From positions 1-48,333 of the forward strand of contig JAOAIP010000022.1 in NCBI GenBank assembly GCA_026414605.1: a stretch of DNA of 48,333 nucleotides. The letters are read 5' to 3'. Within the stretch, counting starts at the first letter, position 1. Every line of letters starts with the position of its first letter. The DNA is from Bacteroidia bacterium (GTDB lineage: Bacteria > Bacteroidota > Bacteroidia > B-17B0 > Aurantibacillaceae). Both the position numbers and the translations under genes were made by a program. Shown piece after piece: positions 324 to 27,018 of this stretch. The notes beneath the pieces are model-generated. The model ran no database searches, was not told the origin of the DNA, and was given only the letters and a program-made list of their open reading frames with translations.

Positions 324-3300
324 TTACTCCTTAATAATTTTTCCTATATGTATTTTATCTTGGGTGTCTTTAATTTTAATAAGATAAATACCTTTTGCCC
401 AATCAGATATATTTAATTGCAATGAATTATTTAAGTTTTTAGCAGAATATACTTTTGAACCGAGTGTGTTATAGATTTCAACATCAAAAGTATTAGGAGC
501 AGTAATCTGAATTTTATCCTTCACAGGATTAGGGAAGATCATTATTTGATTAAACTGATTCACAAAAGAAGCAATAGAAGTGCTAACACAAGTAGTATCT
601 ACTAATTGACCATTACTACTTACAACTGTACTTTGTAATCCTGCACCGTTTTCTGCTTTCACACTAAAATAATAAGTGGTGCCGTGAGCAATACTTGGGA
701 TGTTGACAGTTACCAAAGTGTTTGCCCAAGCGTTCGTCCAATTGATGATATTCGTTGATCCCGCAGAGGTACCCACAGAATACCAATATTGAGATAATCC
801 TGAATGTGGATCGGTGGATGTTCCCCAGTTTGCACTTAAACTATCCTTTGTACAAGCGATATTAATATCTGTTGTTTTTCCATCATTTACAGGAGATGGA
901 GCTGATGGAGGCGTCCAATCTACATTGACATCTTGATATACAATAGCAGATATATTATCAGCATTATCTTGTGCAATGGATTTTATTCGCCCTGCTGGTG
1001 TTGAAGGATTAGGATTTTGATAACGTAAATCTGTATTTCCTGGACCAACTAATACCGTTACATTTCCTGAAACTCTTGAACGATACACTTTTAATTGGTT
1101 AATATTCATCACAGCATTGCCACTTCTAAAAGATACATATTTTCCATTAGATGCATTATGGGGTGATGGATCTTGATACTTGTTGATTAATTGATTATTC
1201 CAATAAGTCCAAATTTCTCCGGTAATTCTATCATAAATAACCTTAACATTGTACCAAGTATTTGCAGAAAATGTCAAAGGAATATCCACAACAGCAGTAC
1301 CAAAACTATTATTCACTACTTTGTACAATTGAAATTTTTGGTCATCTAATCTGAACCACACAAAATAAGAGTTACTTCTGTTAGTTGTCCATCCTGTATC
1401 ACAAAAGAAATGAAAACCACCTCTTCTATTTGTACCAGTTCCATCTAACTTAATATCAAATTCATAGAGATAACGATTGGATAGTGTTTGGTCTAAAAAG
1501 GCATAGATATTGGTATTTCCTGCTGTAGAAGAGGACTCATCGGATTGAATAAGAGCCCCACCTGATTGCGACCAATTACCTACCACAACATTCCAATAGG
1601 GGCGAATAGCCGTACTATCAAAGTTATCTGCAAAGAAACCACGAGAACGATTAGCATCCCAATAGTTGCCATTATATTCTATCACTTGATAATATCCTTT
1701 TTGAATACCGCTACCTCCTGAATTATCAGTGTCAGTAATGGTTGTTGTAAAATTTGTTGTAACCCAAGAAGAAGGAGCACTTACAACAGTAACTGGAGCA
1801 ATGTTATCTGTAGCACTGCCGGTAGCAGTGATTGTATAATTGGCTGCCCATCCAATATCCGTAGTTGCACAATCACTTCTAAATTCTACTAAAACAGAGT
1901 CATTATTAACAGATACATTTCCAGGCGAATTTGTTCCTGTATAATAGCCCACCAATGGTGACCAAACAGACCCACCATTGTAAATATACATATAATCCCA
2001 AGTATTTTCTAATCCAAAAGATGTGAAATTGAGTGTGATATTAGTAGCCCCAGCTTGTGTGAATAAATATAATTTTCTTTCATCATTTGAATAATTTCCG
2101 CCAGATCCACCCGAATCGTAGAAAGTTCCTGAAGATGCAGTATAAGTAGCAGTAATAGTATAAGGAGAATTCACTAATTTATAATATCTATCCCAATTCC
2201 AATACTGACCAGGATCTGTATGTGTTTGATTAGGATAATGTTGGTGTCCTTTTATTTTAGTACAAGAACCGGGAATACCAGAACTACTATAATTAGTAGT
2301 AGGTAACCAAGGCCAGAAACCTGTACGTAATGGGTTAATACCGTAACCGCTGTTACAAATATCTTTGACTAATGCTGCTGAAGAATTATACATAGCAGTA
2401 GTATACCAATTATACCCTGTATTCATATAACCTTCGTGTTCAATTCCAATAGTATAAGGATTTTCTGTGCCTACGTGCCATGCTTTATCGGCTTCTAAAA
2501 CCATTTGTGTAACTTGCCCATCACTACTTCTTAATACATAGTGAGCAGATACTTGGGCAGAACAATTTTTAAACCAAGAAATAGCACCTGCATAACTTCC
2601 CTCTGTATCATGAATGGTAACCGCAGAAATAGCCGTACCACCTCTTGAAGAATAATTACAACTTGCAGCAGGATTCCATATTGCAGGTGGATAATCAGCA
2701 GAAGTTATTTGATTAGTAGATTGATTTTTATACATTGCACCTGACTCGGTATAAATCGCTTCTTCTGTAACAAGAACTCGTCCTGCACTCAATACGGCAT
2801 AATTTTCTTTAAATGTTTCTCTTAAATCAATTTTGTAATCAGGGAATCTATACGCATTCTGAGATTCGGGCTGACTTAAAAACCAATACAATTGATACAA
2901 ATGGGCTTGCATTGCAAAATCATTGATAATATCATTAGATAAAGGAAGTTCGCTTAATTCTATAAATATTTCTTTGTATCTCTCTAATCGTTCCGTTCCA
3001 AAAATGTTTTTTTCTTGTTGTAGTTTTTGAAAAGCCGATGCATACGCTAATATGCTACTTTCGGGATTATTTTTTATATCTTCAACAGAAAATCCTGATA
3101 ACAAAGAAACTTTTAATAAATTTTCTCTAAAATATCCTTTACCGTCTTCAATTAATCCCATCACTGTCAATGCTTTAGGCAAACCAATACAACTATTTTG
3201 TGAACCATCCAGATGGTAAAAACGTGTTTGTGTATACGCAATGGCTTCTAAAAATCCTTTGGGAACAGAGGAATAAATGCTATACGCTTTTTGAAAACTA

Positions 3301-25339: not shown

Positions 25340-25714
25340 TTAAGAAAAAATCTTGCTACTCATTACCCCAACAAACACAAAAATTATCCCTAAAATTAAA
25401 CTTCCTAAACTGTATGCTACAAATAAAAGGTATTCGCCTTTTTCAAGCAAAGCAAGATTTTCAGCAGAAAAAGAAGAAAAAGTGGTAAATCCACCGCAAA
25501 ATCCTGTCGCAAAAAATAATCTGTAAGCACTTAAAGTTGGATATTCTTCTATGATGCCATAAATCAATCCTATTAAAAAAGATCCAACTATATTAATTGT
25601 AAATGTTCCTAATGGGAAAGTAATTGGGAAAATTTTTGTAATTACTATTGAAACGCTGTATCGTGAAATACTGCCTAAGAAACCGCCAATGCCTACTAAA
25701 AGTAAGTTTTTCAT
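25340..25714 (-). CDS. crcB: Fluoride ion channel/exporter CrcB (Fluc)
   Basis: A 124-residue four-helix membrane protein that works as an antiparallel dimer and lets fluoride leave the cell. Family motifs: GIGGFLGSISRYSVS at about residues 8-22, the conserved GSFLIGLIYG near 45-54 and FATGFCGGFTTFSSFS near 68-83. Only one copy is present, so it would be a dual-topology homodimer. A fluoride riboswitch directly upstream (25732-25795) confirms the function independently. A tRNA-Ser gene precedes the riboswitch on the same strand with no visible promoter between, so cotranscription is likely. Confidence 0.95.
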   Translation of the reverse strand: MKNLLLVGIGGFLGSISRYSVSIVITKIFPITFPLGTFTINIVGSFLIGLIYGIIEEYPTLSAYRLFFATGFCGGFTTFSSFSAENLALLEKGEYLLFVAYSLGSLILGIIFVFVGVMSSKIFS

Positions 25715-25731
25715 AGATCACTTTTTTATTT

Positions 25732-25795
25732 AGTAGGCGTTATCATCCTTTGTTTGGGTTCAAAGGCAGTTGAGTAGGCGAACGCCATCGCCATC
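25732..25795 (-). promoter_or_regulatory. Fluoride riboswitch (crcB motif)
   Basis: Read on the minus strand the element starts GGCGATGGCGTTCGCC (25792-25777): a GGCG/CGCC hairpin with GGCGTT in its loop. AACTGCC follows, then the stem CCTTTG/CAAAGG (25761-25766 with 25747-25752), then ATGATAACGCC. The loop GGCGTT is exactly complementary to the late AACGCC (25736-25741), forming the pseudoknot of this riboswitch class. Between it and the crcB ATG are 17 A/T-rich bases with no terminator, so control is more likely at translation, though the mechanism is not visible. Confidence 0.92.
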
Positions 25796-25804
25796 TTTTT
25801 TATG

Positions 25805-25895
25805 CGGTGAGGGGGGGATTCGAACCCCCGGTATAGCTTTTCAACTATACGGCGGTTTAGCAAACCGCTGGTTTCAGCCACTCACCCACCTCACC
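25805..25895 (-). tRNA. tRNA-Ser (anticodon GCT)
   Basis: A complete class II tRNA of 91 bases. Acceptor stem GGTGAGG/CCTCACC with discriminator G, D arm, anticodon stem GCGGT/ACCGC around TTGCTAA (anticodon GCT, reading AGC and AGU), a long variable arm typical of serine (TATAG/CTATA) and T arm GGGGG-TTCGAAT-CCCCC. CCA is not encoded. The 3' end lies 9 bases from the 5' end of the fluoride riboswitch. Confidence 0.97.
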
Positions 25896-25914
25896 AATTT
25901 TCAAAATGTGGCCG

Positions 25915-25922
25915 CAAATTTA
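25915..25922 (-). promoter_or_regulatory. -7 box for tRNA-Ser and probably riboswitch-crcB
   Basis: TAAATTTG on the minus strand is a perfect TAnnTTTG. It would start transcription about 10-15 bases before the mature tRNA 5' end. No second box was seen between the tRNA and the riboswitch. Confidence 0.6.
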
Positions 25923-25962
25923 CGTGATATTTTACAATTATTAAAATAAAATATCGCTTTTT

Positions 25963-27018
25963 TTAATTATCGTGTTTTTTTAGCCACTCTATTACTGCTG
26001 GGGCTAATTCATTTTGTGATTTAGAACCTACAAATACTCCAATGTGCCCGCCTTTGAAACTGTAAAGTGTTTTATCTTTACTTCCTACCAAATCATTTAA
26101 AGGAATTGTTGCTGCAGGAGGCACTAGATGATCTTCAGTGGCATAGATATTCAATAATGGGCAAGTGATGTTTTTCAAATTTACTTTTTGTCCTTTGATG
26201 ACTAATTCACCTTTTACTAATTTATTTTGTTGATATAAGTCCTTCATAAATTGGCGGAAACATTCTCCTGCTTGGTCGGGGCTTTCGTTAATCCATTTTT
26301 CCATTCTCAAAAAATTCAATAATTTTTCTTTATCGTCAATAATACTCATCAGATTTTGTTGCTTTTGCAATTTCATCATTGGCTTTAAGATTTCAAATCC
26401 AACGTTCAAAAAGTCGCCAGGAATTAAGCCGTGATAACCTTCTACTAATTTATCAAAGTCCATATCTTTGCTCCAACGGAACAATAATCCATCATTCGTT
26501 GAAAAATCTATTGGTGTAACATGTGTGACTAAGTTTTTTACTTTTTCTTGATGTAAAGCCGTATAAATTACCGAAAGTGTTCCTCCTTGACAAATACTCA
26601 ACAGTGTGATTTTATCGTGGCCAGTAGTTTTACGAATATAATCAACGCAATGATCAATGTAATCAATATAATCATCACAAGTTAAGTATCTATCGGCTTT
26701 GGTTGGAAATCCCCAATCAATGAGATACAAATCAGCACCGCCTTTTAATAAGTTTTTGATATAAGAACGATCGGGCTGAAGGTCTAACATTTTGTAAGTA
26801 TTTACTAAAGCATACACAATCAAAATAGGCGTTTTGATAGTAGGGGGTGTTTCTCTATCATAGTGGTAGAGAACTAATTTATCCTCTTTGTAAACAGCGG
26901 TTTTTGGAGTTGTTGCAATATCTATTTCTTTAATATCTTTGAGCACTTCTGCTCCTTTTAGCATTTTTTCTGCTAATTCAGCCATTTCTTTCATTTGATT
27001 GATATTTACTGGTTCCAT
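25963..27018 (-). CDS. phaC: Class III polyhydroxyalkanoate synthase subunit PhaC
   Basis: A 351-residue alpha/beta-hydrolase that polymerises 3-hydroxyacyl-CoA into storage polyester. Using ATG at 27018, the catalytic set is C143 (SICQGG), D296 (TEDHLVPP) and H325 (KGGHIG), aligned six residues before the C149/D302/H331 triad of the Allochromatium enzyme. AVYKEDKLVLY, LIVYALVN, DVYLIDWG-like LYLIDWGF and FLRMEKWINESPDQAGE are strong class III signatures. The nucleophile box has Ser where Gly is usual before Ile-Cys. An upstream Met at 27078 gives an unrelated hydrophobic extension and is rejected. Class III synthases need a PhaE partner, and none is in this window, nor phaA or phaB. Confidence 0.9.
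   Translation of the reverse strand: MEPVNINQMKEMAELAEKMLKGAEVLKDIKEIDIATTPKTAVYKEDKLVLYHYDRETPPTIKTPILIVYALVNTYKMLDLQPDRSYIKNLLKGGADLYLIDWGFPTKADRYLTCDDYIDYIDHCVDYIRKTTGHDKITLLSICQGGTLSVIYTALHQEKVKNLVTHVTPIDFSTNDGLLFRWSKDMDFDKLVEGYHGLIPGDFLNVGFEILKPMMKLQKQQNLMSIIDDKEKLLNFLRMEKWINESPDQAGECFRQFMKDLYQQNKLVKGELVIKGQKVNLKNITCPLLNIYATEDHLVPPAATIPLNDLVGSKDKTLYSFKGGHIGVFVGSKSQNELAPAVIEWLKKHDN

Follow-up and report, generated by a model that had tools for sequence, protein, structure and literature searches.

How is a fluoride riboswitch transcribed, and at what level does it act, when it begins only nine bases behind a tRNA gene? This question is raised by a locus of a Bacteroidia bacterium (family Aurantibacillaceae; contig JAOAIP010000022.1), within an analyzed stretch of 48,333 nucleotides that is called the window here. 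On its minus strand lie, in order, a -7 promoter box, a gene for tRNA-Ser(GCT), nine nucleotides, a fluoride riboswitch and the fluoride exporter gene crcB. A first-pass annotation of this DNA had proposed that the riboswitch rides on the tRNA transcript and probably acts on translation. The follow-up analysis favors both proposals and adds a start-codon hairpin, the likely expression platform, which was absent from that annotation. We place the probability of the whole model, in which a shared tRNA promoter, tRNA processing and a fluoride-relieved start-codon hairpin together govern crcB, at about 0.72.

Components of the locus

The full tRNA-Ser(GCT) gene that had been annotated is found by both Rfam (25805-25895; RF00005, 57.8 bits) and ARAGORN (25804-25895). 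It is a single-copy gene, with no second full-length match in the genome, and we take it to be essential. From the tRNA discriminator base to the aptamer there are nine bases (25796-25804), as first counted. The aptamer, a representative of the crcB motif (25727-25801), scores 51.0 bits over the full RF01734 model (1-64 of 64; gathering score 34; E 2.6e-11). Its P1 (GGCG/CGCC) and P3 (CCUUUG/CAAAGG) stems are both present, the latter as already noted in the first pass, and so is the class pseudoknot, whose 5' strand GGCGUU (25781-25786) pairs with the 3' strand AACGCC (25741-25736), itself part of an inverted repeat. Judged by the covariance model, these three helices and its place before a fluoride-resistance gene, the element is a bona fide fluoride riboswitch, and it would be expected to bind this ion. 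No second fluoride riboswitch was found in the 2.48 Mb genome.

The crcB open reading frame, also on the minus strand (25340-25714; 124 amino acids), is identified by PF02537 (104 bits) and by TIGR00494 (98.4 bits, cut-off 80.45), and its start codon (25712-25714) follows the end of the Rfam riboswitch match by 12 nucleotides. Elsewhere in the window, an intergenic stretch of this Bacteroidota genome (30517-30561, plus strand) scores 45.5 bits for the Acido-Lenti-1 RNA (RF01687; gathering score 37), a match that may be only a GC-rich hairpin repeat.

Distribution of tRNA-riboswitch pairs

One account of the arrangement is that tRNA and riboswitch are neighbors without regulatory meaning, following a chance rearrangement at the tRNA 3' end that was kept in one genus. 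The comparative search for tRNAs near crcB-motif RNAs that the first-pass annotation had suggested for Bacteroidota was run collection-wide, by scanning about 85,000 species genomes with a strict pattern that requires a fluoride core 20-50 bases behind a T-arm. It returned 12 matches, 8 of which were confirmed as same-strand tRNA-then-riboswitch pairs, and such rarity favors chance. The tRNAs concerned are tRNA-Arg in a Bacillota metagenome-assembled genome (MAG), tRNA-Ala in two Acidobacteriota, tRNA-Val CAC in three Elusimicrobiota, tRNA-Gln in a member of the Omnitrophota and two tRNA-Val in Thermoflavifilum thermophilum, of the Bacteroidota, where the AUG lies inside a hairpin stem. Some of the tRNA-led switches among the confirmed pairs have terminators (L015 and L019). 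Three matches (L016, L021 and L022) were discarded as coincidental, having no tRNA at the matched place and no riboswitch above the cut-off.

Within the order, the other crcB loci examined all lack a neighboring tRNA, and tRNA linkage as a general crcB feature of the order was therefore rejected. Other tRNAs of the same genome lie 17-22 nucleotides before open reading frames (loci L137 and L132; one frame is kdsB-like), so tight tRNA-mRNA spacing is not peculiar to crcB. The counts from the scan are small and demonstrate no enrichment above background; with the arrangement this rare, selection for the tRNA-switch order is likewise not demonstrated. What speaks against chance is recurrence with different tRNAs, because the confirmed pairs indicate that the order, although rare, is found in at least five phyla. 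Furthermore, in a sample of Elusimicrobiota, 4 of 30 riboswitch loci are led by tRNA-Val(CAC), up to 172 bases upstream and with no evident promoter between. We consider the odds on a meaningless adjacency to be even. A chance origin and use of the tRNA promoter are mutually compatible.

Some loci seen in this survey deserve mention in their own right. In an Elusimicrobia MAG (L019, 5495-5800, plus strand), tRNA-Val and a fluoride riboswitch with a terminator precede an eno-like open reading frame instead of crcB, and the switch appears to control this gene, whose presumed product, enolase, we take to be a fluoride-inhibited enzyme. In a Terriglobus MAG, a fluoride riboswitch stands behind an apparently degenerate tRNA-Ala remnant (L023, about 3150-3235, minus strand), and a related MAG has an intact tRNA at the corresponding place (L017). 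Elusimicrobiota also carry a multi-copy element of about 140 nucleotides directly downstream of many tRNAs (Val, Met, Arg, Glu and Ser), with copies at L149 (about 1329-1480), L151 (about 1232-1400) and L179-L197. The element contains a 9-13 nucleotide antisense copy of the T-arm of its adjoining tRNA, and most copies are then followed by a direct repeat (11-27 nucleotides) of that tRNA's 3' end, usually from the T-loop C. Matches at E values up to 0.001, many of them weak, occur in 51 of 248 genomes, and a tRNA adjoins the element at 16-17 of 19 loci checked. No Rfam family fits it, and it has the look of a mobile or structured RNA element that targets tRNAs and is so far undescribed.

Promoter and co-transcription

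The -7 box annotated before the tRNA, TAAATTTG (25915-25922, minus strand), is an exact match to TAnnTTTG, the promoter consensus established for Bacteroidota (PMC6847099; PMC7366714), and presumably serves the whole tRNA-riboswitch-crcB transcript. Because it is the only such box on the minus strand within 25700-26000, compared with 52 on the same strand in 48 kb, its position is unlikely to be accidental. Among 30 tRNA loci sampled from the genome, 10 have a perfect box 20-30 nucleotides upstream, which is the peak position, and the box of tRNA-Ser(GCT) is at 27 nucleotides. From 25915 to the crcB ATG, the minus strand contains no further perfect -7 box; a consensus promoter belonging to crcB was rejected on this basis, and the annotated lack of a promoter between tRNA and riboswitch holds as far as the consensus can tell. 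A terminator after the tRNA, which the annotation had named as contrary evidence, was also searched for, and nothing terminator-like was found on this strand between the tRNA and the ATG.

The crcB mRNA might instead originate from a non-consensus promoter of its own, inside the tRNA or just before the aptamer. The tRNA would then be incidental, and the hairpin described below would still control translation. Not every promoter has a perfect TAnnTTTG, which makes a weak internal one conceivable, and a one-mismatch box, TATAGTTG, is present at 25849 in the tRNA variable arm. Moreover, a perfect box occurs in 17 of 55 Bacteroidota riboswitch loci; since about two thirds of the loci are without one, its absence here is weak evidence against a separate promoter. 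The geometry is harder to reconcile with this explanation. Of 22 boxes found up to 120 nucleotides upstream of the riboswitch in the 55 loci, 16 fall 1-20 nucleotides before the aptamer, a stretch that in the window is tRNA sequence, and with a spacing of nine bases, or five in the congener G002, there is no space for a promoter except within the tRNA.

Three other crcB genomes of the genus were compared, a small sample in which two members (G001 and G003) are incomplete. G002 retains the tRNA-Ser(GCT) gene, the riboswitch, crcB and the hairpin, with the spacer CCAAA (5 nucleotides) between the tRNA and P1. In G001, crcB lies about 84 bases after the tRNA-Ser end and no riboswitch is recognized. 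In G003 the tRNA keeps its position after the same PHA synthase-like gene, but crcB is on another contig, with a TACATTTG box of its own a short distance upstream of the ATG. The tRNA -7 box is kept in all three, as TACATTTG in G002 and G003 and as TACCTTTG, further upstream, in G001. Thus, crcB lacks a perfect box of its own where it stands behind the tRNA and has one where it stands elsewhere. Box placement and this congener pattern favor read-through from the tRNA, and we regard a separate crcB promoter as unlikely. The co-transcription of tRNA, riboswitch and crcB proposed in the first pass is well supported computationally by the box position, the box spacing across the phylum and the congeners, and we infer a single transcript.

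The junction in G002 is tighter still (L002, 1501-1515, plus strand). There, CCA follows the discriminator and just AA precedes P1, so the Rfam tRNA and riboswitch models overlap.

Processing of the tRNA

A transcript of this kind would have to be cut to release the tRNA. CCA directly follows the annotated 3' end in 4 of the 30 tRNAs; because CCA is mostly unencoded, the 3' end is probably formed by RNase Z-type cleavage behind the discriminator base, and RNase Z is encoded in the genome (TIGR02651, 295 bits). Cleavage is presumed to occur at the start of the spacer. It is plausible that this 3'-end processing sets the 5' end of the crcB mRNA, about nine bases before the aptamer.

A predicted hairpin that encloses the start codon

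The 3' strand of the pseudoknot appears to have a second partner within the coding sequence. A 5' arm, AACGCCUACUAAA (25729-25741, minus strand), faces a 3' arm, UUUAGUAGGCAUU (25688-25700, minus strand), that lies within crcB codons 5-9. These 13-nucleotide arms are 92% complementary, with 12 of 13 positions paired and ten of them consecutive. Specifically, GCCUACUAAA (25738-25729), which comprises pseudoknot 3' strand and the next bases, is perfectly complementary to UUUAGUAGGC (25700-25691) in codons 5-8. The hairpin is the central helix of the minimum free energy structure and of every fold made, and the start codon is inside its loop. No shuffle of the downstream sequence among 100 matches as well, and only 12 of 3000 synonymous recodings of crcB codons 2-15 pair as well, which argues that the complementarity of the arms is no by-product of the protein sequence. 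Comparable hairpins are common in the phylum. At 34 of 55 Bacteroidota loci, no more than 5 of 100 shuffles equal the native hairpin, and many of these hairpins lie at the start codon.

The hairpin of G002, GCCUACCAAU/AUUGGUAGGU, differs from that of the window by two compensatory double changes (U-A to C-G and A-U to U-A) and one G-C to G-U change, although the register is common to these two sequences only and the covariation thus rests on two genomes. The recoding test is weak in G002, where 290 of 3000 variants are as good. A near-copy of GCCUACUAAA also occurs within the aptamer (GCCUACUCAA, 25779-25770, minus strand), and either copy could pair with codons 5-8; this first near-copy is not kept in G002.

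Because the hairpin and the ligand-bound pseudoknot both use AACGCC, they are mutually exclusive. Rough energies (-37.7 kcal/mol for the hairpin state versus -20.8 kcal/mol for the held aptamer plus -7.6 kcal/mol for the pseudoknot duplex) suggest that folding favors the OFF hairpin without ligand. In the same type of calculation, holding the aptamer would open the start region only modestly, as the predicted opening cost is 7.2 rather than 11.5 kcal/mol and the mean unpaired probability, from a nested energy model, barely changes.

The helix that excludes the bound aptamer encloses the AUG (25714-25712), as expected of a translational ON switch. A terminator-type riboswitch would place a hairpin with a U-run before the gene, whereas here no T-run follows the hairpin, its 3' arm is within the open reading frame, and a search for an intrinsic terminator between the aptamer and the ATG found none. 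These features also weigh against early arrest of RNA polymerase in the absence of fluoride, whether caused by the hairpin itself or by an event that depends on Rho or pausing. Terminators operate on the same strand exchange in many fluoride riboswitches (PMC13273304; e.g., L015, L048 and L062), and Rho is encoded, rho being the next large open reading frame downstream of crcB in the window, but we consider transcriptional action highly improbable at this locus. The annotated absence of a terminator before the ATG, the AUG-enclosing hairpin and the compensatory changes in the congener all agree with the earlier view that control is probably at translation. On these sequence and folding grounds, translational control of crcB through the hairpin is well supported computationally.

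A model for fluoride control of crcB

These elements can be assembled into a single proposed mechanism. One sigma-ABfr-type promoter (25922-25915) would drive constitutive synthesis of a pre-tRNA-Ser(GCT)-riboswitch-crcB RNA, from which the tRNA would be released by RNase P together with RNase Z-type cleavage at its 3' end. Without fluoride, AACGCC plus CUACUAAA would pair with crcB codons 5-9 to form a 10-13 bp hairpin, with the AUG shut inside its loop. CrcB would then not be made, since Bacteroidota lack Shine-Dalgarno sequences and adjust initiation through mRNA structure near the start codon (PMC6847099), and initiation would therefore depend on an open start region. Fluoride would stabilize the GGCGUU/AACGCC pseudoknot, withdraw the shared strand, open the start region and turn on CrcB production. 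We give very little credence to a further coupling of tRNA maturation and switch, whereby, across the 9 (window) or 5 (G002) bases from discriminator to P1, the bound aptamer would alter the RNase Z cut or the cut would be needed for aptamer folding, with mutual effects between fluoride sensing and the supply of serine tRNA.

If the model is correct, a riboswitch that is carried on a tRNA transcript can manage with no dedicated promoter; its 5' end would come from maturation of the tRNA, and the constitutive RNA would be read only at translation. The locus would also offer a compact natural case for aptamer folding a few bases from a maturing tRNA. Furthermore, it would mean that coding sequence can be the switching arm of a start-codon hairpin in a phylum without Shine-Dalgarno sequences.

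Comparison with known systems

For both terminators and translational switches, it is established that the fluoride pseudoknot exchanges a strand with a downstream hairpin (PK versus P4), and covariation across the whole riboswitch has recently been used to model this exchange (PMC13273304). The translational RF01734 switches of Pseudomonas syringae and Burkholderia pseudomallei share with the window the aptamer, the pseudoknot, the fluoride-export target and ON-type strand exchange. Unlike these, the window hairpin takes its 3' arm from crcB codons 5-9 and has the AUG in the loop, and the RNA follows a tRNA rather than its own promoter. The terminator-type switch of Bacillus cereus crcB likewise forms its hairpin from the pseudoknot 3' strand and the following bases, whereas the window hairpin lacks a U-run and uses coding sequence as an arm.

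As far as consulted, the description of the crcB motif by Weinberg et al. 2010 (PMC2864571) makes no mention of tRNA linkage. No description of a riboswitch directly behind a tRNA was found in the open-access papers searched, and because most subscription papers lay outside the search, this silence is weak evidence of novelty.

Transcripts that join a tRNA to an mRNA are familiar from the thrU-tufB and metY-nusA operons of E. coli, in which a tRNA promoter serves a protein gene and processing makes the mRNA 5' end. The proposed use of the tRNA-Ser(GCT) promoter by crcB would be of the same kind, with the difference that a ligand-sensing riboswitch is placed 9 bases (5 in G002) behind the tRNA. 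Overall, the locus is genuine and combines known parts in a rare arrangement, and its strand-exchange hairpin is a known design of the fluoride riboswitch class.
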